Assembly (NCBI RefSeq): GCF_002127655.1 | Contig: NZ_NEHB01000029.1 | Span: forward strand, 1-64,000 | From: Janthinobacterium sp. GW456P | GTDB taxonomy: Bacteria; Pseudomonadota; Gammaproteobacteria; Burkholderiales; Burkholderiaceae_D | DNA length: 64,000 nt | Reading direction: 5' to 3' | Notes under the pieces: model-generated | Told to the model about the DNA's origin: nothing | Seen by the model: only the letters and a program-made list of their open reading frames with translations | The model's database searches: none | In this document: positions 7,309 through 27,440 of the stretch, piece by piece | How positions within the stretch are numbered: position 1 is the first letter of the stretch | Layout of the letters: every line of letters begins with the position of its first letter | Position numbers and translations under genes: made by a program

Positions 7309-8529
7309 GTGGACCTGAGCGACGGCAGCGGCAAGGCGAGCAAAAGCGTCACCGCGGCCGTGCGCAAGCGCGACGTGCTGCCCTACATCCTGCTGTTCAT
7401 CCTGCTCGCGGGCTTGCTGGCCGTACTGGCGGGCGCCCTGCTGCCGCCCTACTATCACGCCGTGCCGGCCCTGCTGTGGAGCCTGGGCTTTTGCGTCAGC
7501 GGCATGCTGCTGGGCTTTTTGTTCGGCATCCCGCGCACCCTGCCGTCGGGCACCGTCAACATGGCGCCGCCCGACGAAAGGGCCAATGGCAAGAGCCGCC
7601 CCGACGACGCGCCACCGGCAGGCGCCGAGGCGGCGGCCGGCACGCCCAGCAATACCCTGTTCCTGGGCACGCCCACGCCCATGGAAATCAATTCGAATCT
7701 GGTGGAAGTGTCGGACTGGCTGACGAAAATCATCGTCGGCGTGGGTTTGATCGAGCTCAAAAGCCTGCCCGGCAGCGCGCGCAGCATGGCCGCCTTCATC
7801 GCGCCCAGCCTGGCGACCGATACGGCCACGGCGATGGCGGTGGTGGGCGGCATCATGCTGTTCTTTTCCGTGCATGGCTTTTTGATCGGCTATTTGCTCA
7901 CGCGCATTTACCTGTCCATCATGATCAAACGGGCCGACAGCCTCGTCAAGAACGAGTCCGTGCGGCTCGAAAGCGGCAAGGAAATCGAAGTGACGGAATT
8001 GAGCCGCTTGCAGCAAAAGTCGCTCGACGACATGCAGGAAGCCGTCACGCAACTGCTGCTGGCCCATCCGCCCGATGGCGGCGCCGCCGTCACGGCCTTG
8101 GCCGGCGTGCCGACGGCGCAAAAGCCTGCCAGCCTCGTGCTGTGGCTGGACGACCATCCGCGCAACAATACCTTGCTGGTGGAACAGCTGGAACGGGAAA
8201 ACATCAAGGTGGACCAAGCGGTGTCGACGCGGCAGGCGCTGGCCATGCTGCAACAGAAACACTACGCGCTATTCATCACGGACATGGCGCGGGTGGAAAA
8301 CGGCCGCAGGCTCAAGGATGCAGGCGTGCGCACGGTGCGCGAAGTGCGCCAGACCTTGCCGGACCTGCCCATCGTCGTGTATTGCAGCAAGGATACGGTT
8401 ACCAGTTATGGCACGGAAGCGCAGGCGGCGGGCGCCCGCTTCATCACCACCTCGGGCACCAGCCTGCTGGCGGCAATCAACAAGTTATTGCATGAACAAC
8501 GGGAGGATGGCACTCAGCCACCGTCGTAG
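7309..8529 (+). CDS. Membrane-anchored atypical receiver-domain protein
   Basis: Protein of 406 residues. Two membrane segments near the N-terminus (about 22-44 and 52-73) end in the motif LFGIPRT (71-77). A Pro/Ala-rich loop follows, then a third segment (about 174-200), a helical linker, and a C-terminal receiver-like domain (about 275-395). This domain keeps the acidic pair (D281, D282 in LWLDDHPRNN), a candidate phospho-acceptor (D325 in FITDMAR) and the distal Lys (K361). The start is GTG with AAGGAG six bases upstream; longer in-frame starts lack such a site. No output domain or partner kinase is adjacent. WLDD-P-NN receivers occur in proteins of conflict systems (recollection, to be checked). 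Confidence 0.7.
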   Translation: MDLSDGSGKASKSVTAAVRKRDVLPYILLFILLAGLLAVLAGALLPPYYHAVPALLWSLGFCVSGMLLGFLFGIPRTLPSGTVNMAPPDERANGKSRPDDAPPAGAEAAAGTPSNTLFLGTPTPMEINSNLVEVSDWLTKIIVGVGLIELKSLPGSARSMAAFIAPSLATDTATAMAVVGGIMLFFSVHGFLIGYLLTRIYLSIMIKRADSLVKNESVRLESGKEIEVTELSRLQQKSLDDMQEAVTQLLLAHPPDGGAAVTALAGVPTAQKPASLVLWLDDHPRNNTLLVEQLERENIKVDQAVSTRQALAMLQQKHYALFITDMARVENGRRLKDAGVRTVREVRQTLPDLPIVVYCSKDTVTSYGTEAQAAGARFITTSGTSLLAAINKLLHEQREDGTQPPS

Positions 8530-8888
8530 GCGTAGCTGCCCACATGGTGCAGCGCGCTGCGCCGCGGATACGCCAGCTGATTCGGCGCAAACACGCAGAC
8601 GACCGTATCGGCCAGCACGCCCTGCGCGTCCGCGCAGGCTTGCGCCAGCCAGCTGTCGCCATACGACATGCCATCGAGCAGCTCTGCCAGCGGCGCGGGC
8701 GAGGCCAGCAGCGCGCTCTCGATGCAGGCCGGTTCGTAGCACGTCAGGCCCGTTTCCATGAAGAATGGCGACGGCACAACATCGCCATCCTCCGTGTACG
8801 CGGGCGCCAGGTAAGCCTGCAGCGCTTCCCAGCTGGGAAAGCGGCCGCTGCAGGTGAAGACGTGGACCATGGGCAAGCTGTCAGGCAC
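8514..8888 (-). CDS. Imm22-like immunity family protein
   Basis: Small acidic cytoplasmic protein of 124 residues without signal or membrane segment. The pattern VFTCSGRF, YTEDGD, SPFFMETGL, CYEPACIES and MSYGDSWL resembles the Imm22 (DUF4284) family, recalled as immunity proteins of contact-dependent and polymorphic toxin loci. No toxin gene is beside it, so it would be an orphan immunity protein or have been recruited elsewhere. Its 3' end overlaps the convergent receiver-protein gene by 16 bases. It starts only two bases before the stop of the next upstream gene on its strand. Family assignment is from memory of the pattern; moderate certainty. Confidence 0.55.
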   Translation of the reverse strand: MPDSLPMVHVFTCSGRFPSWEALQAYLAPAYTEDGDVVPSPFFMETGLTCYEPACIESALLASPAPLAELLDGMSYGDSWLAQACADAQGVLADTVVCVFAPNQLAYPRRSALHHVGSYAYDGG

Positions 8889-8890
8889 GC

Positions 8891-11584
8891 TTACAGCTTC
8901 TCCATCTTTTGCCGCACGGCCGGCGCCGTCGAGGCCGTCGGCGCCAGTTCCAGATAGGTTTTATAAGCCGCTTTCGCCTTGGCCGCATCGCCGGCCTTGG
9001 CATACGCGTCGCCCAGGTTCAGGTAGGCGATGGCGCGCGACGGGTCCATCTTGACCGTGTTTTCAAACCAGCGTGCCGCTTCGCGGTATTTTTCCTGCTT
9101 GTAGAAAACAAAACCCAGGTTGTTGGCCGCCAGTGCGAAATCGGGACGCAATTTCAGCGCTTCCGTAAATTGCGCTTCCGCTTGCGCATACTGTTTCTCC
9201 TTGTACAATTGCAAGCCGCGGTCGTTGGCCCGCTGCGCCAGCTGGCGCGTCGAGGTGGGCACGGCGCCCGGGGTGACGATCTTCTGCTCGCCGCCCTGCA
9301 AATCTTTCACCGTCACGCTGGCCGCTGCCGGCTTGGCGTCGAGCTTGCTGTTCAAGGCAATGGCTTCCGTCGACAGCTGCGTCGTGTTCGGGCTGAGGAA
9401 TTCCGTCTCGCCCGGCAATTCGAAGACGAAATCGCCCCCTTCCGAACCGGGCAGGCTGCCGAACGCGGGCGTCTGGTTCGACACGCTGGAGACGGCCGGC
9501 GCCACATACGCCGCCAGTTCCGTCGCCGTGATGAGGCCGTCGCCGTTCAGGTCGCCCTTGCCCGCCAGGCCTTGCAGCAGAGTCCACGTGAACACGGAAT
9601 GGCCGTTCGGTCCGCCATCGGCCACCAGCTGGTCGCCGCCGCCGGCCGTCAGCATTTGCCGGCCGATGCGCTTGGCGTTGTCGCGCAGGAAGGAACTGGA
9701 ACCGGCGCCGCGCGTCAGGCCCAGGCCGCTGTAGCAGGCATCCATGACAAAGAACGCATGCTTGGCCGTGAGGGACTCGGCGATATTCTGGATTTCCGTC
9801 ATCGGGATCGCATCCGTGGCAAACTGCGCCGGATCGGAATCGGCGGGCACGATGTAGCCGAGGTCGCGCCCCGAGCTGAGCTTGCGCGTGGCGCCGTGGC
9901 CCGCGAAGAAGACGAAGATGCGGTCATTCTTTTGCACGCCGCCATGGGCCAGCTTGTCGTGGAAGGCGGCCAGGATGTTGTTGCGCGTCGCTTCGCCATT
10001 TTTCAGGGTCACGACGCGTTCGGGCGCAAACGCGAACTTTTCGATCAGGGTTTCGCGGATGCCTTGCGCATCGCGCACCGCATATTGCAGTTTCGGCCAT
10101 TTCGCATAATCATCGATGCCGATCACGACGGCCCAGGAATTGGCGTAACCCGTGGTGACGGGCACTTTTTCCGGCGCCGGGACCGTGCTTTTCGCCACCT
10201 GGAAACTCGTGCCATCCCAGCCTGCGAATTGATAGCCTTCGGCGATCAGCTTGTCGAGCACGGCCGGCAAGGCTTTCACCGTGCGTTCATGGATGTCGTG
10301 GAACAGGACGATGCCGCGACCCGCCTTGTCGACGGACGCCAGCACCCGGTTGGTGATCGAGCTGGGCACGGGGTCGGCCCAGTCCAGTGAGTCGATATTC
10401 CACATCACGGATTTCAAATGCGCATCGGCCAGCGCAGCCATGCCTTCGCTATTGCGCGCGCCATACGGAAAGCGGAACAGCGCGGCCCGCTCGGGGCTGA
10501 TGGCCTTTAATAAAGTGTCGGTGCCGAGGATTTCGCCTTTCAGCTTGTCGCCCGTCTGCTTCGACAACTGTGCGTGGCTGAAACTGTGGTTGCCCACGGC
10601 ATAGCCCTCTTTCATCAGCTTGCGGCTCACTTCCGCGCCCGCGCCCAGCTTGGCATGGCCTTGCGCATCGAGCGAACCGAGATTGCGGCCCACGTTGAAG
10701 AACACGGCCGGCACGCCATACTGTTTCAGGATGGCGCTGATTTCTTCCGTGTAGCGGCGGTGCGGGCCGTCGTCGAAGGTCAGCACGATGGTTTTCTTGG
10801 GCAAGCCCAGGCCGAAGATTTCCGCCTCATCTTTCTTGGGCACGGGCTTGGCTTCGGGCATGGCACCGGCCGGCGGCACCGTATAAGGCACGACGATACC
10901 GTTTTCCTTGAGGATCTGTTCACGGCTGTAGAGCTTTTTCAGCTGCGCCACGTAATCGTCCCAGCGTTCACGCTTGAGTTCGATGGCGCGCTGGCCCAGG
11001 TTGCCGAAGATTTGCCGGATTTCCTTCTCGTAATTGCGCTCAATCTCGCCCAGCGCGTCGAGGTCTTCGGAAATGCGCTTGTGCAGCTTGATCGCCGGCA
11101 AGGACGAATCCTTGGCCACGTCGGCCAGCATGCTTTGCAGCAGTTCGCGGAAAGCCAGGCGGTCCGCGTCGTACAGGCTGGGGTCGGATTCGATATACGT
11201 CAATAAACTGTCGAGCGCTTCGAAACGGCCCGGATTGGTCGGTGCCGTCAACTGATCCAGCGCCGCATCGAGCTTGGCGATGCGTTCCTGGTTTTCATGG
11301 AACAGCGCCTGCCCCACTTTACGGGCTTCGTCGCGTGCGGCTTCGGGCAAGCTTTGCTCGTCGGCCAGCAGCACGATAATCTTGCGGAAATTGCCCAGCA
11401 AGTCGCGGAACTGGCTGGCCACGGCGGCCGTATCGACGGTCGATTGCGGCGCGGCGGCCGGGCTGCCCGATGCGGGTGCGCCGGGCGTGGCGGTGGCGGC
11501 CGGTCGGGTGTAGCTATAAATGCCGGCCCCAGCGGCGAGAGCCACGACAACGGTGGCGGCGATCTTGATCGGCTTGGAAGTCAC
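8891..11584 (-). CDS. Polysaccharide deacetylase-caspase-TPR fusion protein
   Basis: Exported or membrane-anchored protein of 897 residues. An N-terminal segment (5-25) precedes a helical region (50-225). A NodB-type deacetylase follows: LTFDDGP at 268-274, HSFSH with His333 and His337, RFPYG at 371-375 and LFHD at 427-430. Then comes a caspase-like peptidase C14 domain (478-720) with His563 in FFAGHG and Cys617 in MDACYSG, carrying a canonical EF-hand loop (D678-E689). Two or three TPR repeats (about 780-885) close the protein. All catalytic residues of both enzymes appear intact. It could remodel peptidoglycan or exopolysaccharide under proteolytic control. I know no characterised protein with this combination. 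Confidence 0.85.
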   Translation of the reverse strand: MTSKPIKIAATVVVALAAGAGIYSYTRPAATATPGAPASGSPAAAPQSTVDTAAVASQFRDLLGNFRKIIVLLADEQSLPEAARDEARKVGQALFHENQERIAKLDAALDQLTAPTNPGRFEALDSLLTYIESDPSLYDADRLAFRELLQSMLADVAKDSSLPAIKLHKRISEDLDALGEIERNYEKEIRQIFGNLGQRAIELKRERWDDYVAQLKKLYSREQILKENGIVVPYTVPPAGAMPEAKPVPKKDEAEIFGLGLPKKTIVLTFDDGPHRRYTEEISAILKQYGVPAVFFNVGRNLGSLDAQGHAKLGAGAEVSRKLMKEGYAVGNHSFSHAQLSKQTGDKLKGEILGTDTLLKAISPERAALFRFPYGARNSEGMAALADAHLKSVMWNIDSLDWADPVPSSITNRVLASVDKAGRGIVLFHDIHERTVKALPAVLDKLIAEGYQFAGWDGTSFQVAKSTVPAPEKVPVTTGYANSWAVVIGIDDYAKWPKLQYAVRDAQGIRETLIEKFAFAPERVVTLKNGEATRNNILAAFHDKLAHGGVQKNDRIFVFFAGHGATRKLSSGRDLGYIVPADSDPAQFATDAIPMTEIQNIAESLTAKHAFFVMDACYSGLGLTRGAGSSSFLRDNAKRIGRQMLTAGGGDQLVADGGPNGHSVFTWTLLQGLAGKGDLNGDGLITATELAAYVAPAVSSVSNQTPAFGSLPGSEGGDFVFELPGETEFLSPNTTQLSTEAIALNSKLDAKPAAASVTVKDLQGGEQKIVTPGAVPTSTRQLAQRANDRGLQLYKEKQYAQAEAQFTEALKLRPDFALAANNLGFVFYKQEKYREAARWFENTVKMDPSRAIAYLNLGDAYAKAGDAAKAKAAYKTYLELAPTASTAPAVRQKMEKL

Positions 11585-12993: not shown

Positions 12994-14052
12994 TCAGGCT
13001 GCGCGGCGCGTTTGCGCCAGCGCCGCGTCGAATGGACGGGGATCGATCCAGGCGCGCACGTCGACCTTGCTGGGCAGGAAGTTCCAGCGGAACAAAAAGT
13101 CGCTGAAATCCTGCAAGCCCGCGACCGACGTTTCCGCCAAATCCGTGTCCAGGCGCAGATGGGCATCCTTGCCGTAGGCCACTTGGACCCAGTGCTCGCT
13201 GGCATTCGATTCGCGTGCCAGGAAGCGCCGCGTCTCGTCCGCATGACCGCGTGCCCACGCTTCGGCCCGCAGCACCTGCTCCACCAGGGTGACGGCCGAG
13301 CTGAAATGGTGGTCGAGCAGGTGCGCATCGACGCTCAGGGTGCGCGGCGTGCCGTTGTTGGCGCGGATCAAGGGTTCCGGATGGCTGCCCGTGTCGATCA
13401 CCGTGTGCAAGCCGAACTGCTGCGCCAGCTGGGCAGCCGAGGCCCCTTTCAGGAAGATGGCGTCCACTTCGCCCCGCAGCAGCCCCAGCAATTCCGGGCT
13501 TTGCCCGCCGCGCCGTGCGCCGCTGAACAGATTCGTTGCCGCGCCCGGCTCCGGCGCCGTTTCGCTCTGGCCCGCCTGGATGACATAATCGACCAGTTCC
13601 ACGTCGGCAACCGTCAAACCTTCCAGGCTCAGCGCGTTTTCCAGTCCGCGCAAGGCTTGCGCGCGCGCAAAGTCGATCTGCGCCCTGGCCCACAGGGGCA
13701 AGCCGAAGCGCCGGCCCTTCAAGTCGCGCACCGTCTCGATGCCGCTGTTTGGCAGGGTCAGGATCAGCTGCGTCTCGTCCGACCACGACAGGCCGATCAC
13801 GCGCGTCTCGCGCCCCGCCGCGCGCGCCCACAGGGCCGGAATATTGCCGCCGTGGCGCACGGAGTTTTGCAAGGTGTGGTCGAAATGCGATTCGCGCACG
13901 GCTTCCTGCTCCGATTCGCGCAAGGAGCGCAAGCTGGTGCCGGCTGCGCGCAAGGCCTCTTCCAGCCAGCCTTGCTGCAGGGAAATACCCAAGCCCGTGG
14001 GGACGGGGCAGCGCGTGTACCACAGGGTGTCGAGTGCGTTGTTATTGCTCAT
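12994..14052 (-). CDS. DszB-like sulfinate desulfinase (SBP-fold enzyme), copy 1
   Basis: Protein of 352 residues with a periplasmic-binding-protein fold but no signal peptide, so cytoplasmic. It matches the pattern of DszB, the enzyme that cleaves 2-hydroxybiphenyl-2-sulfinate to hydroxybiphenyl and sulfite. YTRCPVP holds Cys15 (DszB Cys27), SHFDH holds His56 (His60), and VRHGGNIPAL holds Arg66 (Arg70). The His-to-Arg spacing of ten is identical to DszB as I recall it. Automated annotation would probably call it an ABC binding protein. It sits between the ATPase (39-base gap) and the last binding-protein gene. The true substrate is unknown; an aryl or alkyl sulfinate made by the nearby flavin monooxygenases is the natural guess. 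Confidence 0.72.
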   Translation of the reverse strand: MSNNNALDTLWYTRCPVPTGLGISLQQGWLEEALRAAGTSLRSLRESEQEAVRESHFDHTLQNSVRHGGNIPALWARAAGRETRVIGLSWSDETQLILTLPNSGIETVRDLKGRRFGLPLWARAQIDFARAQALRGLENALSLEGLTVADVELVDYVIQAGQSETAPEPGAATNLFSGARRGGQSPELLGLLRGEVDAIFLKGASAAQLAQQFGLHTVIDTGSHPEPLIRANNGTPRTLSVDAHLLDHHFSSAVTLVEQVLRAEAWARGHADETRRFLARESNASEHWVQVAYGKDAHLRLDTDLAETSVAGLQDFSDFLFRWNFLPSKVDVRAWIDPRPFDAALAQTRRAA

Positions 14053-14091: not shown

Positions 14092-14973
14092 CTACAGCGC
14101 CATCCTGCGCGCCCATTCATTGCCATCCCACAGGCTGCTGGGATCCACTTCCTGCGCCACGGGCGCGTGCGTGTCGTCGAGGTCGCTGAAATCCGCATGC
14201 AAGCCATCGCGGATGGCAACGAAACCCGACGACCCGCGCTGGCGCGGGTGAGCCAGCGGCACGTCCTGCACCCGGCGCACCGTGCCCGGCCGCGCATCCA
14301 GCACGACGATGCGGTCGGCCAGGTAGACGGCTTCATCAATGTCATGCGTGACCATCACCATGGTGATGCCCTCCTCCTGCCACAGGCGGCGCAATTCCTG
14401 CTGCAGACGCAAGCGGGTCAACGCGTCGAGCGCGCCGAGCGGCTCGTCCAGCAGCAGCACGTCGGGCCGCCCGACGAGCGCGCGCGCGATGGCCGCCCGT
14501 TGCGACATGCCGCCCGACAATTGATGCGGATAGGCATCCGCATAGCCGTCGAGGCCCACGCGCGTGATTTCCGCCGCCGCGCGCGCATCGCGCTCGGCCA
14601 GCGGTACACGGGTATTGCTGAACGCCACGGCCACGTTCTCCTGCACCGTCAGCCACGGAAACAAACGGTGATCCTGGAACACGAGGCCCCGGCGCAGATC
14701 CGTGCCGCGGATCGGCACGCCGTCGTGCAGCAGCAAGCCCGTGTAATCCGTATCGAGGCCCGCCAGCAGGCGCAGCAAGGTGGATTTACCGCAACCGGAG
14801 GCGCCCACGATGGCGACGAATTCGCCGGGCGCAATCGTCAGGGAAATATCATCGAGCACCGGCAGCGGCGCGCCTTTCAGCGAAAATGACTTGCTCACGT
14901 GCTGCACTTGCAAGCCGCCGCTCAGGTGCTGCTTTTGCGGTGACAAGGCCAAAGGGGAAACAACATCATTCAT
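14092..14973 (-). CDS. ABC transporter ATP-binding protein (SsuB/TauB type)
   Basis: ATPase subunit of a sulfonate/nitrate/taurine-type importer, 293 residues. Walker A is GASGCGKST, the Q-loop lies in LVFQDHRLFPW, the signature is LSGGMSQR, and Walker B is VLLLDEPLGALD followed by the switch His in VTHDIDEA. FQDHRLFPWLTVQENVA and DLDDTHAP are typical of the SsuB/TauB branch. The ATG overlaps the stop of the upstream MFS gene by four bases. It powers the two permeases encoded upstream; an MFS gene between permeases and ATPase is an uncommon arrangement. Confidence 0.92.
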   Translation of the reverse strand: MNDVVSPLALSPQKQHLSGGLQVQHVSKSFSLKGAPLPVLDDISLTIAPGEFVAIVGASGCGKSTLLRLLAGLDTDYTGLLLHDGVPIRGTDLRRGLVFQDHRLFPWLTVQENVAVAFSNTRVPLAERDARAAAEITRVGLDGYADAYPHQLSGGMSQRAAIARALVGRPDVLLLDEPLGALDALTRLRLQQELRRLWQEEGITMVMVTHDIDEAVYLADRIVVLDARPGTVRRVQDVPLAHPRQRGSSGFVAIRDGLHADFSDLDDTHAPVAQEVDPSSLWDGNEWARRMAL

Positions 14974-16235
14974 GGCGCACTCTCTGCGGTGGGGGATAGG
15001 GAAGGAATCGCGGCGGGCGGCGCCCGGCGCAGCCAGCGGCTGCCGTGGAAACAGAGCCAGGCGGCCAGCCAGGGAAATAGCCAGATCAAAAACACATTGC
15101 GCAAGCCCGTCACGTCCGCCAGATGGCCGGCCGCCAGTGCGCCGGCCGTGCCCCCGACCATGCCGAACAGGGTCAAATGGGCCGAGACCCTGGCCTTGTC
15201 GACGGGCGCGCGGGCGATATTGTCCGTATTGACAAGGTTATTCACGCCCAGGCCCAGGCCCAGCAGCACGGAGGCTGCCAGGTAGGCGATGCTGGACGGC
15301 CACAGGCCCAGAATCAGCAAGGCCGCCATGATGGCCAGGTGCGCGCCGCCATACCATTGCTCGCGATGACGGCTGGCCAGCACGAAACGCCCCAGTAACA
15401 GCAGCACGAGCACGCAGCTGAGTCCCTGCACGGCCATCAACCAGACGGAGTGGTGCGCAGGCCAGTGCAGCACGCGGATGGCCAGCAAGATGGAAAATAC
15501 GCCCACGCTCGATGCCGTGAAGCTGGCGAGGATTTCAAACAGATACGTGCTGCGCACGATGGGCAGGCGCAGCAGTTCAAGCAGGCTGGCCGCAGCGGGC
15601 AGCGCCCCCTGTCCCCCCGGCTTGCGCGGTGCCGTATTGTCAGGCAGCACTTGCCAGCCCAGCACGGCGAGGATGGCGAACATCAGGGCGGAAATCAAAA
15701 AGCCCGCCTTCAAGCCCAACTGCGCGATCAGGTAATTGCCGCACAAGGGGCCCAGGAACTGCATACCGAGGATTAATGTTCCCTTGTACCAGCCCGCCTT
15801 GCCCTGCCCCAGTTCCGGCAGGCGCACGAGAAACACCGTGCTCATGGCCACGATGCGCAGCGAGATGCACAGCCCCACGAGAAACATCAGCAGGGCCACC
15901 CATTGCCAGCCGGGCAGCCACGGCAATACACAAAAGGCCAGCGCCAGGCTCAGGCTCACTCCCGCATACAAATGCTTCGGATTACCGCGCGACAAGATAT
16001 AGCCGGCCGGTATGGTACCGAGCGCCATGGCCAGGGTTTCCGCGCTGCTGATCGCGGCCAGCTGGAAATTGCTCACGTGCAGGTGCAAGCCCAGCAAGGT
16101 GGCCAGCACCTTGTTCATGCCGATGGTCACGCCCGACAGCAGGGTCAAGCCGATAAAGCGCAGCAAGAAGGCGCGCAACTCCCCTTCACGGGCGCTGGCG
16201 GCAGCGTCTGGCTGGAATGGCGGGGATTTACTCAC
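14970..16235 (-). CDS. MFS transporter inside the sulfur operon
   Basis: Major facilitator protein of 421 residues with about twelve hydrophobic segments, beginning near residue 25 (FLLRFIGLTLLSGVTIGMNKV). The cytoplasmic-loop signature is degenerate (PAGYILSRGNPKHLY). It is embedded in the operon: its start overlaps the upstream permease by eight bases and its stop overlaps the ATPase start by four. Because an ABC importer is already encoded, I infer export of a desulfurized product or of sulfite, or an alternative uptake route. No specific substrate family was recognised. Confidence 0.82.
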   Translation of the reverse strand: MSKSPPFQPDAAASAREGELRAFLLRFIGLTLLSGVTIGMNKVLATLLGLHLHVSNFQLAAISSAETLAMALGTIPAGYILSRGNPKHLYAGVSLSLALAFCVLPWLPGWQWVALLMFLVGLCISLRIVAMSTVFLVRLPELGQGKAGWYKGTLILGMQFLGPLCGNYLIAQLGLKAGFLISALMFAILAVLGWQVLPDNTAPRKPGGQGALPAAASLLELLRLPIVRSTYLFEILASFTASSVGVFSILLAIRVLHWPAHHSVWLMAVQGLSCVLVLLLLGRFVLASRHREQWYGGAHLAIMAALLILGLWPSSIAYLAASVLLGLGLGVNNLVNTDNIARAPVDKARVSAHLTLFGMVGGTAGALAAGHLADVTGLRNVFLIWLFPWLAAWLCFHGSRWLRRAPPAAIPSLSPTAESAP

Positions 16236-16992
16236 TGCTGCGCCCCTTCACCAGCAGACGCGCGAGCCGCGCAAACGCCACGTTCATCGCCTGCGCCAGC
16301 AAGGCGATCACGAGCACGGCCAGCAGCACGACGTCCATGCGGCCCGACACTTCGCCATTGAGCAACAATGCCCCCATGCCGGGGCCGGCCGCAAACAGCA
16401 GTTCGCCGCCCAGGCAAGCGAGCCAGGCAAACGCCAGCGCATGCGTGACACCGGTGACGATGGCCGGCATGGCGCCTGGCAACAGAATCTGGCGCAAGGT
16501 TTGCCAGCGCGTCAGGGTCAGCACCTGCCCCACTTCGCGCAAGCGCCCCTCCACCTGGCGCATGCCCGCATACGTGTTGAGCACGGTAGGATAAAAAGCG
16601 GCGATGGCGATCACCAGCAGCTTGGCGCCGTCGCCATTGCCCACCCACAAGCCCAGCAAGGGGATCAGCCCCAGCAAGGGGACTTGGCGGATGCTGTGGA
16701 ACAGGGGGCCGATCAGGCGGTCCGCCAGCGGCGACTGCGCCATCAGCGCGCCCGTGACGATGCCGGCGCTGCCGCCCAGCAGCAAGCCGGCCAGGGTACG
16801 GCCCAGGCTGGCGCGCAGATGCACCCACAGTTCGCCCGTCAAGACCAGGTCGCGCAAGCTGTGCGCCAGATCGTCCAGCGACACGAAGATGTAGGCGGCC
16901 GCCGCGCCCTGGCTCGAGGCCCATTGCCAGGCGCCCAGCAAGGCCAGCGGCAACATCGCGCCCTTGATAATCTGCATTAACCGTTGCTTCAT
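16228..16992 (-). CDS. ABC transporter permease, sulfonate/nitrate type, 2
   Basis: Inner-membrane permease of 254 residues in the SsuC/TauC (BPD_transp_1) family. It has five to six membrane segments and the cytoplasmic EAA-type loop, here read near GMRQVEGRLREVGQVLTL with TRWQTLRQILLPGAMP. The start at 16992 is set by GGGGAG upstream and a four-base overlap with the previous permease stop; a longer open frame upstream is only a shadow of that gene. It is paired with the permease at 16989-17825, probably forming a heterodimeric channel. Confidence 0.9.
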   Translation of the reverse strand: MKQRLMQIIKGAMLPLALLGAWQWASSQGAAAAYIFVSLDDLAHSLRDLVLTGELWVHLRASLGRTLAGLLLGGSAGIVTGALMAQSPLADRLIGPLFHSIRQVPLLGLIPLLGLWVGNGDGAKLLVIAIAAFYPTVLNTYAGMRQVEGRLREVGQVLTLTRWQTLRQILLPGAMPAIVTGVTHALAFAWLACLGGELLFAAGPGMGALLLNGEVSGRMDVVLLAVLVIALLAQAMNVAFARLARLLVKGRSSE

Positions 16993-17825
16993 GAGTTCTC
17001 CCCACTCCGCTTCCAGCGCATCAGCCGTGCTTCCAGCGCATGGCAAGCCCGGTCCAGGGCGAAGCCGATCACGCCCGTCAGCACCACGCCCACCATCACC
17101 ACATCGAGGCGGAACATTTGCCGGCCCATTTCCATCATCTGGCCCAGACCGCTGTCGGCGGCCAGCAATTCCGCGCCCACCAGGACCATCCACGAGCGCG
17201 ACAGCGCGATGCGCATGCCCGTCAGCGCGGCCGGCACGATGGCGGGCAGGACGATCAAACGGATGCGCTGCCAGCGCGAAAAGCAATACACTTGCGCCAC
17301 CTCAAAGTAGCGCTGCGACAAGTTGCGGATGGCGTCATGCACGGCCAGCGCGACGATGAAGAAACTGGCCTTGGCCACGATAAACACCTTGAAACTCTCG
17401 CCTATGCCGAACAGCAAGATAAACAGAGGAATCAGGGCGACGGTCGGCAGCTGGCGCAAGACATTGAACGTGGGGTCGACATAGCTGCGCAAGCCTGGCG
17501 ACAGGCCCAGCACGACGCCGAACGCCAGGCCCGCGCCGGCGCCCAGGCCGAAACCGGCCAGCAGGCGGAACAGGCTGATGCCCAGGTGCTGGCCCAGTTC
17601 GCCGCTCGCGGCCAGATCGCGCGCCGTCAGCAGCACTTGCCACGGCGACATCAAGATGTGCGCAGGCATCCATTCGAAAGTGGTGGCGACGCTCCAGAGC
17701 AGCAGCAAGGCCAGCGGCGACGCCCACACGGACCAGCGCGAGCGCACAAAGCGCCGCAGCCAGGGAATGGACGCCGCATGCGCTGGCGCGGGAGAACGCG
17801 GCAAGGCGATAGCGAGGGAAGTCAT
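16989..17825 (-). CDS. ABC transporter permease, sulfonate/nitrate type, 1
   Basis: SsuC-like permease of 278 residues. A cytoplasmic N-terminal stretch precedes five or six membrane helices, with the conserved loop YFEVAQVYCFSRWQRIRL then VLPAIVPAALTGMRIA. The start at 17825 overlaps the stop of the upstream binding-protein gene by four bases, which settles the start against a longer open frame. Together with the second permease, the ATPase and the two binding proteins it makes one importer of the sulfonate/taurine/nitrate class. Confidence 0.91.
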   Translation of the reverse strand: MTSLAIALPRSPAPAHAASIPWLRRFVRSRWSVWASPLALLLLWSVATTFEWMPAHILMSPWQVLLTARDLAASGELGQHLGISLFRLLAGFGLGAGAGLAFGVVLGLSPGLRSYVDPTFNVLRQLPTVALIPLFILLFGIGESFKVFIVAKASFFIVALAVHDAIRNLSQRYFEVAQVYCFSRWQRIRLIVLPAIVPAALTGMRIALSRSWMVLVGAELLAADSGLGQMMEMGRQMFRLDVVMVGVVLTGVIGFALDRACHALEARLMRWKRSGENS

Positions 17826-18895
17826 GGCGTCCAGTACGTTTGCAGCTTCAGCTGCGCCAGCGCCTGGTTGACGAACTGGGGCGCGAACAGGCTGTCGACT
17901 TGCAGGGGCCGCCCGATCAGGCCCGCGCTCTTCGCATACGCCGCCTCGCCCAGGTAATGCTGGCGCAGGCTGGCCGTAAACAGTGGCGACCAGCGCGCCT
18001 GCCACGGCGTATGGTCGCCCGCCAGTTCGCGCCGCACCACGCTTTCCACCTGGCCCGCCGACGCCTCGGTGCGCACATACTCGTCTTCGCCGCCGGCGCC
18101 GGCGGCCCGGTGGTGCTCGCGCACATACGCCGTCACCACCAGCTGGGCCAGCTGCGGCCAGCGTTGCAGGAAGCCGCTGTCGGCCCACAGTTCGGCGCGC
18201 ATCTTCCAATCCTGCGGCGGCGCCTTGCTGGACCAGATGATCTTGCCCACCTTTTTATCTTCCAGCAAAAAGGCGTCGCTGAGGGTAAAGAAGGCGTCCG
18301 CGCCGCCCGTGGCCACGGCCGCCGCGCCCGCCTGCGGGTTCAGGTTGAGGATTTTCACGTCGCGCAAGCTCATGCCGCTCGCTTCCAGCAGGCGGGCGAA
18401 CGGGTATTCCCATGGCCGGCCCCGGTGCAGAGCGATCTTCTTGCCTTTCAAGTCCTTGATCGAGCGGGCCGTGGAGCCGTTCGGCACCACCAGATACGTG
18501 TTGCTGAAGCTGCCGCCCGGCAAGATCAGCCGCGTCTGCAAACCCGAGGCATTGGCGATGATCGATGGCAGGTCGCCATACTGAGCCAGGTCGATCGAAT
18601 GGTTGGCAAACGCCTCGTTGACTTGCGTCGCCACGGAATTGGTGGTGACGGGCACCCATTCCAGCTTCACGCCCAGCTTGCCCAGTTCGGCCGCCAGCCA
18701 GCCTTGCGCGGCCACCTGGGCGGCCGAACCGGCAAACACGGTCTTGCCGGACGGCGCCGTGCGGGCCACGACGGCGATGCGCACGGCGGCCGGCAACGGC
18801 TCGGCGGCTGCCGCGATGGCTGGCGCCAGCAGGCTGGCCGCCACGGCGGCGGCGAGTAGCTTGCGCCAGCTCAAACGTAAGAATTTCAATGACAT
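17822..18895 (-). CDS. ABC transporter substrate-binding protein, SsuA type (second gene of operon)
   Basis: Periplasmic binding protein of 357 residues with a Sec signal peptide (MSLKFLRLSWRKLL, then AAVAASLLAPAIAAAA). SsuA-type motifs include NEAFANHSIDLAQYGDLPSI, NTYLVVPNGSTARSIKDLKG, KKIALHRGRPWEYPF and VGKIIWSSKAPP. The stop overlaps the first permease gene by four bases and the gene follows the class II aldolase by 22 bases. It is about as long as, and clearly paralogous to, the product of 11890-12945. The ligand is inferred to be an organosulfur anion, from the monooxygenases and desulfinases around it. Confidence 0.9.
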   Translation of the reverse strand: MSLKFLRLSWRKLLAAAVAASLLAPAIAAAAEPLPAAVRIAVVARTAPSGKTVFAGSAAQVAAQGWLAAELGKLGVKLEWVPVTTNSVATQVNEAFANHSIDLAQYGDLPSIIANASGLQTRLILPGGSFSNTYLVVPNGSTARSIKDLKGKKIALHRGRPWEYPFARLLEASGMSLRDVKILNLNPQAGAAAVATGGADAFFTLSDAFLLEDKKVGKIIWSSKAPPQDWKMRAELWADSGFLQRWPQLAQLVVTAYVREHHRAAGAGGEDEYVRTEASAGQVESVVRRELAGDHTPWQARWSPLFTASLRQHYLGEAAYAKSAGLIGRPLQVDSLFAPQFVNQALAQLKLQTYWTP

Positions 18896-18917: not shown

Positions 18918-19667
18918 TTACACCAGGTCGGTGGCAGGAAGCAAGGAGAGCGCGCGCGCCGTGTCGATCAGCTTGCTCATCTTCCATTGCTGCAGCAGCA
19001 CGCCGGGACCGAAATCGCGCGAACCGCCGATGGCTTCGGCCGCGATCTGGATCTGCGCGCCCTCTTCCAGCAGCAGGATGAACTCGGCCAGCTTCAGCAA
19101 GCCCTGCTTGCCCCACACGGTGGCGCCGCCGTTCGCTTCCAGGATCGCCGTGACATGCGTGTTGCGGGCGATTTCGCCGAGGATGAAATCGACTTCGGGC
19201 TGGCGGCGGTCGATATAGATGGGAATTTCGCGGATCAGCTGGAAGCGCTGCACGGGCACGTAGCGGATGGGCAGGGTGCGGTGCGTCTGCGCCCACGCGC
19301 CCAAGGAGGGCGAATGCACGTGCGAGATCGACGTGACCTCAGGCCGCTCGCGAAACAGTTTTAGGTAGCGCGCGCCGCCGTTGTTGGCGTCGCCGAGCAG
19401 CACCGTGCCGTCCAGCGCCAGCACGGCCGCCTTCAAGGGCTGGCCGCGGCGGAACGGACCGGGATCGTTGACCACCACGACCTTGTCGCCGCCAGGGGTG
19501 CGCTCGACGAAGCCCACCGTGCCATTGGCCGTCAGGCTGCCCGTCTCGCGCAAACCATCGAAGGCGATTTGCGCATCGCGCCGCACCTCTTCCACGAAGG
19601 CCAGTTCGGCCGCCGTCAGATCCTGCGCCTGTACTTGTTGTGCTGCCGCTTGTGCCACGTCCGTCAT
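18918..19667 (-). CDS. Class II aldolase/adducin-family protein (first gene of operon)
   Basis: Class II aldolase/adducin-fold protein of 249 residues. Metal-ligand candidates lie in ISHVHSPSLGAWAQ (His-x-His) with a third His likely further on; the family uses Zn to cleave or isomerise phosphorylated and free hydroxy-carbonyl compounds. The start at 19667 has GGAG six bases upstream; an ATG twelve bases earlier is less well placed. As first gene after a sigma-54 promoter it belongs to the sulfur operon. It may process the carbon skeleton left after C-S cleavage, but members also include enzymes with unrelated chemistry. Exact reaction unknown. Confidence 0.82.
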   Translation of the reverse strand: MTDVAQAAAQQVQAQDLTAAELAFVEEVRRDAQIAFDGLRETGSLTANGTVGFVERTPGGDKVVVVNDPGPFRRGQPLKAAVLALDGTVLLGDANNGGARYLKLFRERPEVTSISHVHSPSLGAWAQTHRTLPIRYVPVQRFQLIREIPIYIDRRQPEVDFILGEIARNTHVTAILEANGGATVWGKQGLLKLAEFILLLEEGAQIQIAAEAIGGSRDFGPGVLLQQWKMSKLIDTARALSLLPATDLV

Positions 19668-19719
19668 GTCATGCTCCATTCTTGAGGTTGAGGTAGGAAT
19701 CAGTCATGCCTGTACTTTC

Positions 19720-19734
19720 GCAAGACGCGTGCCA
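19720..19734 (-). promoter_or_regulatory. Sigma-54 promoter of the eight-gene organosulfur operon
   Basis: Read on the minus strand the site is TGGCACG-CGTC-TTGC, matching the -24/-12 consensus TGGCACG-N4-TTGC at every defined base. The predicted transcript starts near 19708, about 40 bases before the class II aldolase ATG. It drives 19667 leftward, apparently through 11890, because gene spacings are overlaps or at most 48 bases. Confidence 0.82.
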
Positions 19735-19891: not shown

Positions 19892-20944
19892 ATGACCACC
19901 GCAACTTCCCCCGCCGTCGATACCGTCTGGTTCACCCGCTGCCCCGTGCCCACGGCCACGGGCCTGGCCTATAAACTGGGCTGGCTGGACGAGGAATTCG
20001 CCCGCGACGGGATCGCCTTGAAGACGCTGCAGGAAGTGGGCGGCGAACTGGCGCGCCACCATTACGACCACGGCTTGTCCACGCTCGTGCGCGAAGGCGG
20101 CAACCTGCTGGCCCTGCCCGCGCGCGCGCAAGGGGCGCCCACGCGCCTGATCGGCCTGACCTGGATCGATGAATGGCAAGCCATCCTCGTGCGCCCCGGT
20201 TCCGGCATCGCCACGCCCGCGCAGTTGCAGGGTAAGCGTCTGGCGCTGCCCGTGTTCCGCGCCGAAGACTTGCGCGAGAACCGGCGCGGGCGCAGTATCG
20301 CGCGCGGCATGAGCCTGGCCGGCTACAAGGGCGTGCTGGCGTCGGCCGGCCTCACCTTGGACGATGTGCAGCTGGTGGAAGTGGGGGCCGACGCCCAGGC
20401 ATCGGCCGATCCGGGTGCGGGCCTGTGGCAAGGCATCGGCCCGCTCTTGCGCGGCGAAGTCGATGCCGTCTACGTGAAAGGCGCGGCGGCGGCCGAGGCG
20501 GCCCGCGCGGCGGGGCTGGAAGTGGGCATAGCCATCGACGCCCTGCCCGACCGGCGCTTCCGCGTGAATAACGGCACGCCGCGCCCGATCACCGTGCATG
20601 CAACCATGCTGGAGCAGCATTTCGAGTTGGTCGTGCGCTTCCTGACGCAGACCTTGCGCGCCGCCCACTGGGCGCGCAGCCACAAAGAAGATGTGCTGGC
20701 CATCCTGCAGGGCGAGACGCGGGCCGGCGCCGACGCCGTGGCCGAAGCCTACCGCGACGGTTTTCATTTGACGCTGGCGCCCGACCTGTCGGAAGAAAAA
20801 GTGGCGCTGTTCCGTCAGCAAAAGGATTTTCAATTGCAGCACGGCTTCCTCGACCGCGACGTCGATATCGACGGCTGGATCGACCGCCGGCCGTTGGAAG
20901 AGGCGCAGCGGCGGCTGGAGTCGCTGCTGCGGGTGGCGGCTTGA
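19892..20944 (+). CDS. DszB-like sulfinate desulfinase (SBP-fold enzyme), copy 2
   Basis: Cytoplasmic protein of 350 residues, paralogue of the product of 12994-14052 and again without a signal peptide. The ATG at 19892 has AAGGA upstream; the longer open frame to 19706 covers the promoter region and is rejected. It keeps the DszB-type triad: Cys17 (TRCPVP), His57 (RHHYDH) and Arg67 (VREGGN), with ten residues between His and Arg. FRVNNGTPRPITV parallels IRANNGTPRTLSV in copy 1. It is transcribed alone and divergently from the operon. Two desulfinase-like copies suggest different sulfinate substrates or hetero-oligomers; neither has been tested. Confidence 0.72.
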   Translation: MTTATSPAVDTVWFTRCPVPTATGLAYKLGWLDEEFARDGIALKTLQEVGGELARHHYDHGLSTLVREGGNLLALPARAQGAPTRLIGLTWIDEWQAILVRPGSGIATPAQLQGKRLALPVFRAEDLRENRRGRSIARGMSLAGYKGVLASAGLTLDDVQLVEVGADAQASADPGAGLWQGIGPLLRGEVDAVYVKGAAAAEAARAAGLEVGIAIDALPDRRFRVNNGTPRPITVHATMLEQHFELVVRFLTQTLRAAHWARSHKEDVLAILQGETRAGADAVAEAYRDGFHLTLAPDLSEEKVALFRQQKDFQLQHGFLDRDVDIDGWIDRRPLEEAQRRLESLLRVAA

Positions 20945-23641: not shown

Positions 23642-24796
23642 TCAGGCGGCGCGCAGCAGTGCCGCCGTGTGGCCGCGCACGAGGGGCAGCACTTCCTCGC
23701 CCACCCTGTACGCTTCTTCCAGGTGCGGCGTGCTGGCCAGGATGAAGGCGTCGGCGCCCAGCTGCACCAGCTCGTCCAGGCGTTCGGCCACCTGCTGGTA
23801 GCTGCCGACGATGCCCTGCGTCTGCCCGCCGCGCAGCAGATTGAAGCCGGACCAGATATTCGGCGCCGTGATCAGGTCCTTGTAGCTGTTCAAGGTGGCC
23901 GGGCGGTTGCCCCGCTGGCGCGCCGCGCCCACGGAATCGCCGCCATCGGCGCCGAGGAACTGGCGCAGGGTGGCGGCATCGACGGCGTCAAAACCCTTGC
24001 GCACCTCGTCCCACGCCTCTTCTTCCGTGGCGCGGGCGACGATGTCGACGCGCACGGCGCACTTGATCTTGCGCCCCAGCAGCGCCGTCTTTTCCTGCAC
24101 GCGGGCGAATTTCTCGCGCAGCTGCTCGAACGGTTCCAGCCACGTCAGGTAGTAATCAGCGTGCTTCGAGGCCGAACCAAGGGCCGCGTCGGACGAACCG
24201 GAAAAATAGATCTCGGGGAAGTCCTGCTCCGACAACGGCGTGGCCAGGCCCGCGTCTTCCACCTGGTAGAACTTGCCCTGGTAGGAAAACGGTCCGCCGC
24301 GCCACACGCCGCGCACCACGTCGAGAAATTCCGTCGTGCGCGTGTAGCGGTCGTCGTGGCCGGCCGCATCGCCCCACCACAGCTGCGCCGGACCGCCGCC
24401 GCCCGTGATGACGTTGTACAGGGCGCGGCCGCCCGTGGCCCGCTGCAGGCTGGCCGTCATGCGCGCGGCCACCACGGGATTCAGAAAGCCGGGCTGGAAC
24501 GGGATCATGAAGCGGAAGGTGCGCGTTTCGCGCGCCAGCAGCGCGGAAATGGCCCACGGTTCGTCCGTCATGGGAAACGACGGAATCAGGCCGCCCTGAA
24601 AGCCCGATAGCTCGGCGGCGCGGGCGATCTCGGCCAGGTAGTCGATATACGTAAAACCGTCGGCGCCGCCGCCACCGAGGCCGGCCTGGCGCAGGTTGTC
24701 ATTGCCGGGAAACCAGTCGCCGCGAAACGGCGTGCGGGCGCGGTGCGAACTCGGTTCGCCATGCGTGGGGATGCGCCAGAAAAAATCGATTGCCAT
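23642..24796 (-). CDS. SsuD-like FMNH2-dependent monooxygenase 1
   Basis: Flavin-dependent monooxygenase of 384 residues in the bacterial-luciferase-like (LLM) family, SsuD branch. It matches alkanesulfonate monooxygenase in length and in PTHG (His12), YLTWLEPFEQLREK and TPHLEEAYRVGEEVLPL, the last holding the Tyr of the SsuD active site. In KCAVRVDIVAR the Arg is kept, but the position of SsuD His228 appears to be Asp. An insertion (about residues 22-45, Gly-rich) is absent from SsuD. It should need reduced flavin from a separate reductase; none is encoded nearby. It is second in an operon with monooxygenase 2 (26-base gap). Confidence 0.88.
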   Translation of the reverse strand: MAIDFFWRIPTHGEPSSHRARTPFRGDWFPGNDNLRQAGLGGGGADGFTYIDYLAEIARAAELSGFQGGLIPSFPMTDEPWAISALLARETRTFRFMIPFQPGFLNPVVAARMTASLQRATGGRALYNVITGGGGPAQLWWGDAAGHDDRYTRTTEFLDVVRGVWRGGPFSYQGKFYQVEDAGLATPLSEQDFPEIYFSGSSDAALGSASKHADYYLTWLEPFEQLREKFARVQEKTALLGRKIKCAVRVDIVARATEEEAWDEVRKGFDAVDAATLRQFLGADGGDSVGAARQRGNRPATLNSYKDLITAPNIWSGFNLLRGGQTQGIVGSYQQVAERLDELVQLGADAFILASTPHLEEAYRVGEEVLPLVRGHTAALLRAA

Positions 24797-24822: not shown

Positions 24823-25902
24823 TCAGGCCGCTTGCAGCTGGGCGCTCAACGCTGCCCGCACGCAAGGCAGCACGTGCTCGCCGATGCGGTAGGCTTCCTC
24901 GAAATGGGGGATGGCCGCCAGCACGAAGCTCGACACGCCCGCCTGCGCGTACGCTTCGAGCGCGGCGGCCACCTGCGCATGGCTGCCGACCAGGGCGCCG
25001 TGGGCGCCCGTCTGCGCTTGCGCAAAGCCGGGCCAGAACGCGGCAGTGCTGCCGTCGGACGGCAATTCGTCGGGTAGCCCCGCCCCGCTGCGGTAACGGC
25101 GAGCGTCGCGCAAGGCTTCGTCGAGCGTTTCACGGGCCAGTACGTCGATGCGCAGGCCCGCCGCCACGGCGCGGCCCAGCTGGCGCGCCTGCGTTTGCAG
25201 GCTGTCGATGGCGGGCCGCAAATCCGCCACGGGTGCCGCGTCGAACACGTGCACGTCGGCCTGGCGCGCCGACAGGGCCAGCGCTTCGGCGGTATCGCCG
25301 GTCAGATAGATGCTGTTGACACGATGGTTCGCCAGCGGCCCCTTGAAGCCGCCGTCCTGCACTTCGAAAAACTTGCCCTTGAAGCTGAACGGCGACGCGT
25401 TCTGCACGCCGCGCGCCACCGTGATGAATTCATCGATGCGGGGCAGGATATCGGCGTCCGGCGCCGCATCGCCCTGGCGCCGGCGCGCGGCCGCATCGCC
25501 GCCCTGCCCGATCTGCCACGCGAAGCGTCCGCCCGTGAAGCGCTGGAAGCTGACGGCGTTCTTCGCCGCGTACACGGCCGAACCCCAGGCGGCGTCGAAT
25601 TCGGCGATCAGTTTCAGGTACCGCGTGCCGCGGGCCAGGTAGCCGGCGACGATCCAGCTTTCATCGCCCTGCGTATCGTGGTGTATCTGAATGCCGTCGA
25701 AGCCGGACAGGTCGGCCGCGCGGGCGATCTGGTGCAGGTAGTCGAAATAATTGAATGGCGGACGCGCGCCGCGCGGGTCGCTCACGCCCGCCTGCAGGGG
25801 ACTGGGGGCGCCGGCGTTTCGCTCGCCCCGGCGCGTGACGCCGGGCGCCGCGTAACGGCCGTCGCCGCTGGTGGGCAATTGCCAGATGAATTCAATGGTC
25901 AT
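24823..25902 (-). CDS. SsuD-like FMNH2-dependent monooxygenase 2
   Basis: LLM-family monooxygenase of 359 residues, paralogue of the previous entry. The start at 25902 (MTIEFIWQLPTSGDG) has AGGAG seven bases upstream; the open frame extending to 26079 covers promoter and activator sites. The SsuD His of PTHG is Ser here (PTSG), while AGLRIDVLARET and IPHFEEAYRIGEHVLP are kept. Altered active-site residues in both copies suggest a substrate other than simple alkanesulfonates, for example sulfones or aryl sulfonates. It is first in its operon, under a sigma-54 promoter. Confidence 0.88.
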   Translation of the reverse strand: MTIEFIWQLPTSGDGRYAAPGVTRRGERNAGAPSPLQAGVSDPRGARPPFNYFDYLHQIARAADLSGFDGIQIHHDTQGDESWIVAGYLARGTRYLKLIAEFDAAWGSAVYAAKNAVSFQRFTGGRFAWQIGQGGDAAARRRQGDAAPDADILPRIDEFITVARGVQNASPFSFKGKFFEVQDGGFKGPLANHRVNSIYLTGDTAEALALSARQADVHVFDAAPVADLRPAIDSLQTQARQLGRAVAAGLRIDVLARETLDEALRDARRYRSGAGLPDELPSDGSTAAFWPGFAQAQTGAHGALVGSHAQVAAALEAYAQAGVSSFVLAAIPHFEEAYRIGEHVLPCVRAALSAQLQAA

Positions 25903-26135: not shown

Positions 26136-27329
<1,194 letters not shown>

Positions 27330-27335
27330 GGACCG

Positions 27336-27365
27336 ACTATACCGCGCGCCATCTGCCGGCGTGAA
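27336..27365 (-). promoter_or_regulatory. Candidate sigma-70 promoter of the activator, leaderless
   Basis: Minus-strand TTCACG (27365-27360), 18 bases, TATAGT (27341-27336). The expected start point falls on the A of ATG 27329, which would make a leaderless mRNA and explain the lack of a ribosome site. The -35 is poor. Confidence 0.35.
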
Positions 27366-27440
27366 CGAATGGTGCCGCGCTAGCTTATCCGGATTTTGCA
27401 TATGCGGAGCGCTGGCGCGGACTGCGTGACCAGCGTTTGA

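Follow-up and report, generated by a model that had tools for sequence, protein, structure and literature searches.

A DszB-like protein, probably a desulfinase, encoded among sulfonate-transport and monooxygenase genes of Janthinobacterium sp. GW456P

Results

Genes and features of the locus

The window analysed here, a 64,000-nucleotide stretch of Janthinobacterium sp. GW456P, contains a 352-residue open reading frame (copy 1) whose protein begins MSNNNALDTLWYTRCPVPTG. A previous sequence-only reading had placed this frame at the same positions without naming its strand, which is the minus strand, and had read it as a DszB-like desulfinase that passes for an ABC binding protein. The second copy that it mentioned is real and is 40% identical to copy 1. 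Features of the locus are listed in Table 1.

Table 1. Positions of the DszB-like genes, their site codons and the surrounding features in the window
Feature	Position	Strand	Basis
SsuA-like periplasmic binding protein SBP1, last operon gene, N-terminal hydrophobic segment	11890..12975	-	
Copy 1, DszB-like protein with Cys15, His56 and Arg66-x-Gly68-Gly69	12994..14052	-	homology, model, alignment
Arg66 codon (= DszB Arg70), RxGG motif	13855..13857	-	position computed from ORF start
His56 codon (= DszB His60)	13885..13887	-	position computed from ORF start
Cys15 codon, sole cysteine of copy 1	14008..14010	-	position computed from ORF start
SsuB/SaoA-like ABC ATPase	14092..14973	-	
MFS transporter	14970..16235	-	
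Second SsuC-like permease, start codon not settled	16228..17004	-	
SsuC-like permease, start codon not settled	16989..17834	-	
SsuA-like periplasmic binding protein SBP2, N-terminal hydrophobic segment	17822..18895	-	
Class II aldolase/adducin-family protein, first operon gene	18918..19679	-	
Candidate sigma-54 promoter TGGCACGCGTCTTGCG, ends 39 bp upstream of first operon gene	19719..19734	-	
Copy 2, second DszB-like protein, divergently transcribed	19892..20944	+	
TonB-dependent receptor, 790 aa	21047..23419	-	
SsuD/MsuD-like flavin monooxygenase	23642..24796	-	
Second SsuD-like flavin monooxygenase; start chosen at 25902 within an ORF open from 26079	24823..25902	-	
Sigma-54-interacting (NtrC-type) activator	26136..27401	-	

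Eight genes on the same strand run from 19679 down to 11890 in the order aldolase-like protein, SBP2, two permeases, MFS transporter, ATPase, copy 1 and SBP1, which makes copy 1 the seventh. Each gene overlaps the next or is separated from it by no more than 39 bp, with the permease starts not settled, and ABC permease and ATPase genes are adjacent to copy 1. The dszA-dszB-dszC arrangement was not found around copy 1, where the neighbors are ABC, MFS, aldolase-like and SsuD-like genes. Both monooxygenases scored best as SsuD, and among the cluster genes scanned there was no NtaA/DszA-type protein above cut-off and no DszC-type protein. The aldolase-like protein had no relative in the PDB by sequence at E 0.01. 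Judging from its setting, the activator may be comparable to SfnR. Elsewhere in the window, positions 8891-11584 encode a single protein with polysaccharide deacetylase and caspase (Peptidase_C14) domains and TPR repeats, and positions 8514-8888 encode a small Imm22/DUF4284-type protein.

Copy 1 is related to DszB over its full length

When copy 1 was compared with all PDB chains using phmmer, the closest sequence was DszB (E 3.6e-12), followed at a distance by SsuA (4.4e-4), and the alignment paired residues 7-343 of copy 1 with residues 19-359 of DszB. For copy 2, DszB was the only PDB match at E up to 1 (1.4e-13). A family profile of 69 rows gave a wider separation, with 4.7e-36 for DszB vs 5.5e-6 for SsuA. 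Identity between copy 1 and DszB was 26-30%.

The residues that the sequence-only reading had singled out proved to be in place. The opening YTRCPVP is present at the N-terminus, Cys15, His56 and Arg66 lie exactly where it had put them, and the spacing from His to Arg is ten in both copy 1 (56 to 66) and DszB (60 to 70). Its DszB numbers were also right, since the alignment with the 2de2 chain pairs C15 with C27, H56 with H60 and R66 with R70. Invariant columns in an alignment of 15 rows, chosen for having the Cys and comprising window proteins, plasmid and genome homologs and DszB, include C15, P16, H56, R66, G68 and G69. None of the Cys, His and Arg residues occurred in the matching columns of any of six binding-protein controls (two from the window, one from Sphingobium, E. 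coli SsuA and TauA, and one from Streptomyces). Thr13 of copy 1 occupies the position of DszB Ser25, the hydroxyl partner of His60. A chance motif was ruled out, as the Cys, His and Arg sit within full-length homology.

Copy 1 scored 67.3 bits against the NCBIfam model SsuA_fam (cut-off 163.5), and the cluster binding proteins SBP1 and SBP2 also fell below this cut-off (86.9 and 93.0 bits), so that the miss by copy 1 is weak evidence when taken alone. Pfam NMT1 was barely passed (20.7 vs 20.5). The low SsuA_fam score and the marginal NMT1 match are consistent with the usual label for such proteins, ABC transporter substrate-binding protein.

In a tree of 43 rows, with support from a quick method only and a program warning of long branches, seven binding proteins were split from two DszB and 34 family rows (SH-aLRT 99). 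The two DszB rows formed a clade of their own (99) and the other 34 family rows grouped without them (86); copy 1 was not inside the DszB clade of this tree. By this quick tree, copy 1 would not be a DszB ortholog and would belong to a separate, mainly proteobacterial clade. It is therefore rightly called DszB-like but not DszB.

The absence of a signal peptide, also proposed earlier, was borne out by a crude hydropathy test. The best 10-residue mean within the first 40 residues was 1.08 for copy 1 and 2.07-2.87 for six of seven binding proteins; the seventh, from Streptomyces, reached 1.30 and is likewise without an evident signal peptide. By the same measure a mycobacterial DszB gave 1.80 and other family members up to 1.87. 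The idea that copy 1 is a misread binding protein was rejected on the combination of SsuA_fam score, tree, N-terminus and site residues.

The expectation that automatic annotation would miss the enzymatic role largely held. An annotation is attached to 19 of the 60 listed plasmid homologs, and in 18 it reads ABC transporter substrate-binding protein. The nineteenth, which is 66.6% identical to copy 1, is named soxB with the product monooxygenase. However, a chromosomal protein of Rhodococcus IGTS8 is termed SsuA/DszB in the available part of PMC8557817.

Predicted structure

Structure prediction with overlay on DszB had been suggested as a check, and its outcome agreed with the sequence comparison. 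The AlphaFold2 model of copy 1, built from 69 rows, was confident (pLDDT 91.8, pTM 0.90). Its top Foldseek matches were three DszB chains (1.9e-21 to 9.3e-21), followed by SsuA (7.0e-15). In VIA-align, run on the 1000 chains ranked highest by Foldseek, the best fit was the C27S form of DszB with bound sulfinate (Z 32.6 over 318 residues at 2.9 A); free DszB gave Z 31.7, the best SsuA 25.9, and other enzymes of the fold (Thi5, MqnD, MqnA and dihydroxyphthalate decarboxylase) 13.2-17.3. His56 lies within a predicted helix (residues 50-58) of the model. According to the available text of PMC6100217, the DszB loop 55-62 turns into a helix on substrate binding and carries His60 into the site. We counted this correspondence, of a predicted helix with the DszB loop that is helical with substrate, in favor of a desulfinase.

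Single cysteine and sulfur sparing

Cys15 is the sole cysteine of copy 1, and there is no methionine beyond the start. Among 80 Cys-bearing orthologs from the best 80 loci of at least 587 relatives, counted over the matched region, 70 had exactly one cysteine, at the Cys15 site, and the other ten had one more; the median number of methionines was 0. DszB was itself reported to have one cysteine and no methionine in an account of sulfur sparing, as given in the portion of PMC8557817 available. Judging by the alignment, the one cysteine that copy 1 keeps is the one that DszB uses.

Copy 1 contains 0.28 Cys plus Met per 100 residues, compared with a median of 2.09 and a lowest value of 0.46 in the background, which consisted of the 26 non-overlapping longest open reading frames of the window outside the cluster and not of confirmed genes. 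Low values were also found for the TonB receptor (0.13), the second monooxygenase (0.28), SBP2 (0.56), the aldolase-like protein (0.79) and copy 2 (0.86), but not for SBP1 (2.49), the MFS transporter (3.33), the permeases (3.88 and 4.63) or the activator (1.9). Much of the cluster, though not all of it, thus appears to be adapted to sulfur starvation. Sulfur sparing is strong in the TonB receptor, with no cysteine and one methionine beyond the start in 790 residues, and in the second monooxygenase, with one cysteine and no methionine beyond the start.

Distribution and gene neighborhood

One genome from each of 84,980 species was scanned, yielding at least 587 relatives, of which the best 80 loci were kept, a set that by its construction lies closest to copy 1. 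Because the scan looked for the Cys, it could not pick up loci whose only copy has Ser. Within 8 kb, or less at contig ends, the 80 loci contained an aldolase-like gene in 61 cases, an SsuD-like monooxygenase in 52, a TonB receptor in 46, a copy-2 homolog in 39 and a sigma-54 activator in 30. Labels are the best BLAST match to 13 window genes, such that monooxygenase and activator include distant members, and the counts leave out NtaA- and SfnB-type genes.

A match at 1e-20 was present in 25 of 294 sampled genomes of the bacterial family of the window and a match at 1e-30 in seven of 398 genomes of a phylum sample (the own genome included in each), the latter indicating a patchy distribution. 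One genome of the same bacterial family carried seven DszB-like matches within about 55 kb (loci L036-L039).

A plasmid search with DszB gave 87 records, of which one is a true DszB operon (65.9% identity) and the others were listed at 30% identity or less. This search shared records with that for copy 1, including NZ_CP021819, NC_022049, NZ_CP015882 and AP027331. Distant plasmid homologs lie directly beside an LLM monooxygenase in Mesorhizobium and Rhizobium, and directly beside an acyl-CoA-dehydrogenase-like flavoenzyme in Paracoccus, Sinorhizobium and Allorhizobium; in Variovorax, both enzyme types occur within about 10 kb of the plasmid homolog, not adjacent to it. Two of the flavoenzymes were scored and gave 103 and 120 bits as SfnB and 42 and 86 bits as DszC, all below the cut-offs, with one scoring slightly higher as acryloyl-CoA reductase (109).

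A conserved sigma-54-type site

Candidate sites were scored against the sigma-54 consensus. Of 73 rows from the best 80 loci of at least 587 relatives, some of them duplicates of one genome region, 47 carried a site with no or one mismatch ahead of the aldolase gene, vs 68 of 4000 random 200-base pieces of the 80 loci. All eight loci with the Janthinobacterium-type layout of the window (L061-L068) carry such a site. Sphingomonad rows, in which the aldolase gene stands behind the copy-2 homolog, have three to four mismatches there. In the Pseudomonas rows the aldolase gene is oriented away from copy 1, and the site therefore speaks for co-regulation of the cluster and not for a promoter belonging to copy 1.

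By gene, in stretches of up to 180 bases from the same 80 loci (the best of at least 587 relatives), good sites preceded 25 of 43 aldolase, 25 of 50 copy-2, 36 of 50 monooxygenase and 10 of 25 TonB genes. They were few before copy-1-like (21/128), ATPase (2/41), MFS (1/35) and activator (1/6) genes and absent before permeases and binding proteins (0/43, 0/18, 0/7 and 0/7). Across the whole window, sigma-54 sites were not above chance (43 vs a mean of 46.8), and five of them, the operon site included, have a single mismatch; only the place and the conservation of the operon site therefore count.

Natural serine copies

The 80 loci contained 180 family open reading frames, comprising 115 copy-1-like, 49 copy-2-like and 14 other rows, with two fragments set aside. 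In the copy-1-like rows, position 15 is Cys in 80 and Ser in 35, and T13, H56, R66, G68 and G69 are kept in all 115. Each of the 35 Ser copies shares its locus with a Cys copy and lies directly downstream of it (e.g., L136:4896-5927 and L098:9147-10178). These loci belong to Pseudomonas (33), Aquipseudomonas (one) and Zestomonas (one); no Pseudomonas locus of the set was without a Ser copy, and ten loci had no genus label. Four Ser copies included in a tree formed one clade, which fits a single event that has since been kept. A few rows with Ser for Cys were also seen outside the 80 loci, on a Burkholderia plasmid and in the window's own bacterial family.

The Ser copies differ from the Cys copies beyond this one position. 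No cysteine at all was present in 31 of the 35. Of 144 columns in which 97.5% or more of the Cys copies agree, 14 have another majority residue in Ser copies; R14H, C15S, W29R and S55A are changed in all 35, and three of these four lie at or next to catalytic residues. The C27S form of DszB is inactive, yet was crystallised with substrate (PMC6100217, as far as its text was available). Together with the Ser copies, the inactivity of this form argues against every member of the family being the same enzyme.

In the complete family rows (n=178), Arg66 and Gly69 are kept in 178 and Gly68 in 177. The Cys is replaced by Ser, Gly, Arg or Pro and the His by Asp, Tyr, Phe, Ile or Gln, while the Arg is unchanged, so a single chemistry for the whole family cannot be taken for granted. 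Copy-2-like rows keep the Cys in 48 of 49 and have Asp for His in ten, one of which also has Ser for Cys. Copy-2-like rows of sphingomonads and L033:9204-10256 form a subclade with Asp for His, in which Cys and Arg are kept in nearly all. Among the 14 other family rows, eight have another residue for Cys and one has a gap. A strict coupling of Cys and His loss was looked for and not found, as the large classes lose one of the two (Ser/His in 35, Cys/Asp in ten).

Discussion

Copy 1 is probably a cytosolic desulfinase of the DszB superfamily that ends a sulfur-scavenging pathway. Sequence, predicted fold, site residues, the apparent lack of a signal peptide, the operon and the single cysteine all support the DszB-like reading given earlier. 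We infer catalysis, a sulfinate substrate and a sulfur-starvation signal for copy 1, and carry over the role of each site residue from DszB by analogy. Sulfur starvation would cause sigma-54 and its activator to switch the operon on, and flavin monooxygenases would turn an imported organosulfur compound into a sulfinate by oxidation. This substrate would enter copy 1, a presumably cofactor-free C-S lyase, where the His56 helix may close over the sulfinate, with Arg66 and the Gly68-Gly69 turn holding the SO2- group. Cys15 would give a proton to the carbon or, in an older proposal, attack the sulfur, and His56, backed by the Thr13 hydroxyl, would steady the charge. SO2/sulfite would then leave for assimilation.

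Several points were counted against a desulfinase. Identity to DszB is only 26-30%, and the site Cys and His vary within the family, with a Ser copy next to the Cys copy in all 35 of the Pseudomonadaceae loci. The monooxygenases of the window score best as SsuD, an enzyme type that frees sulfite from sulfonates by itself and has no need of a desulfinase, and the cluster genes scanned gave no NtaA/DszA-type protein above cut-off and no DszC-type protein. A desulfinase would therefore imply a sulfinate derived from a sulfone-type substrate, or formed by a monooxygenase encoded elsewhere in the genome. The computed mechanism of DszB, as described in the accessible part of PMC6100217, requires an aromatic sulfinate.

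Three other explanations were weighed. It is rather unlikely that copy 1 is a cytosolic, non-catalytic binder of a sulfinate or sulfonate that informs the sigma-54 activator or feeds a monooxygenase. The substrate-binding-protein fold, the constancy of Arg66 across all complete family rows while Cys and His change, and the persistence of Ser-for-Cys paralogs, with the substrate-bound C27S crystal as a parallel (PMC6100217, seen in part), would suit a binder; however, a mere binder would have no need of the sole cysteine retained by most copy-1 orthologs among the best 80 loci, and the constancy of T13, H56, R66, G68 and G69 in every copy-1-like row also speaks against it. We consider unlikely a lyase on the same scaffold that acts on a sulfonate, a beta-keto acid or an aromatic acid and passes its product to the aldolase-like protein. 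The fold does include 4,5-dihydroxyphthalate decarboxylase (9jp7), MqnD (2czl), MqnA (6o9a) and Thi5, and the aldolase-like gene is the commonest neighbor counted in the best 80 loci, but the structural scores of those enzymes are far below that of DszB, and none of them was matched by the family profile at E 0.01.

It is highly improbable that copy 1 is an ordinary periplasmic sulfonate-binding protein of the adjacent ABC importer whose N-terminus was misread. Although copy 1 matches SsuA-family and NMT1 models and lies next to permease and ATPase genes, it is without a hydrophobic N-terminal segment, its SsuA_fam score is far below the cut-off (as are those of SBP1 and SBP2), the tree places it apart from binding proteins, and two SsuA-like binding proteins that do have such a segment are already encoded in the cluster.

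A broader proposal is possible, though doubtful at present: a sigma-54-controlled, DszB-related family, mainly of Proteobacteria, may supply the missing sulfur-releasing step of as yet uncharacterised routes for scavenging sulfones or thioethers, and in Pseudomonadaceae the Cys enzyme may be accompanied by a constant tandem Ser partner whose rebuilt site serves a second chemistry or holds substrate. If copy 1 is a desulfinase, its family may explain organisms reported to desulfurize without dszB. Available excerpts describe a sulfolane-degrading Rhodoferax in which no dszB was found and a dszA homolog ends the ssu operon (PMC6395730), and a dibenzothiophene-using Gordonia in which no DszB analog was found (PMC11852219). 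Slow turnover of DszB is given as an obstacle to biological fuel desulfurization in the available text of PMC12168087; a large family of DszB relatives, mostly filed as binding proteins, would supply many new enzymes to test. The single-cysteine pattern could also offer an inexpensive way to spot catalytic cysteines in other proteins of sulfur starvation.

Comparison with known systems

Copy 1 is known in kind; its clade, regulation and partners are new, as are the Cys/Ser pairs. Among open-licence papers none on this clade was recognised, and the term DszB-like occurred in none of them. DszB-like genes near ssu genes have been mentioned before in the parts of PMC8557817 and PMC3868597 available, so the finding is not categorically new.

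DszB and copy 1 have in common full-length homology, the fold, the residues Cys27/His60/Arg70 with RxGG, the lack of a signal peptide, one cysteine, no methionine beyond the start and a sulfur-scavenging setting. Unlike DszB, copy 1 has Thr13 in place of Ser25 and eight more residues between Cys and His, and it stands at low identity outside the DszB clade. Its partners also differ, with SsuD-type enzymes, a class II aldolase-like gene and a sigma-54-type site where DszB has dszA and dszC.

By gene setting, copy 1 can be likened to IGTS8_peg4802 (SsuA/DszB) of Rhodococcus qingshengii IGTS8 and to the desulfinase gene bdsA (GTC6_01605) of Gordonia terrae C-6, which are DszB-related and lie beside sulfonate ABC importers and alkanesulfonate monooxygenases; both are actinobacterial, unlike copy 1. 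In the sections available, bdsA is induced on benzothiophene (PMC3868597), and peg4802 appears in a table of differentially abundant proteins, above the heading for downregulated ones (PMC8557817).

The sulfonate-binding proteins SsuA and TauA share the fold of copy 1 (Z up to 25.9) but have an N-terminal hydrophobic segment and are without the site Cys, His and Arg. A further relative is the soxB-named gene of the Sphingobium plasmid pTomTYG65a (66.6% identical). The gene immediately before it encodes an NtaA/DmoA-type monooxygenase (521.6 bits, cut-off 279.7), a type not seen among the cluster genes of the window; DszA is a member of this family. Like the window, the pTomTYG65a cluster contains a class II aldolase homolog, a Fis-family regulator and LLM monooxygenases.
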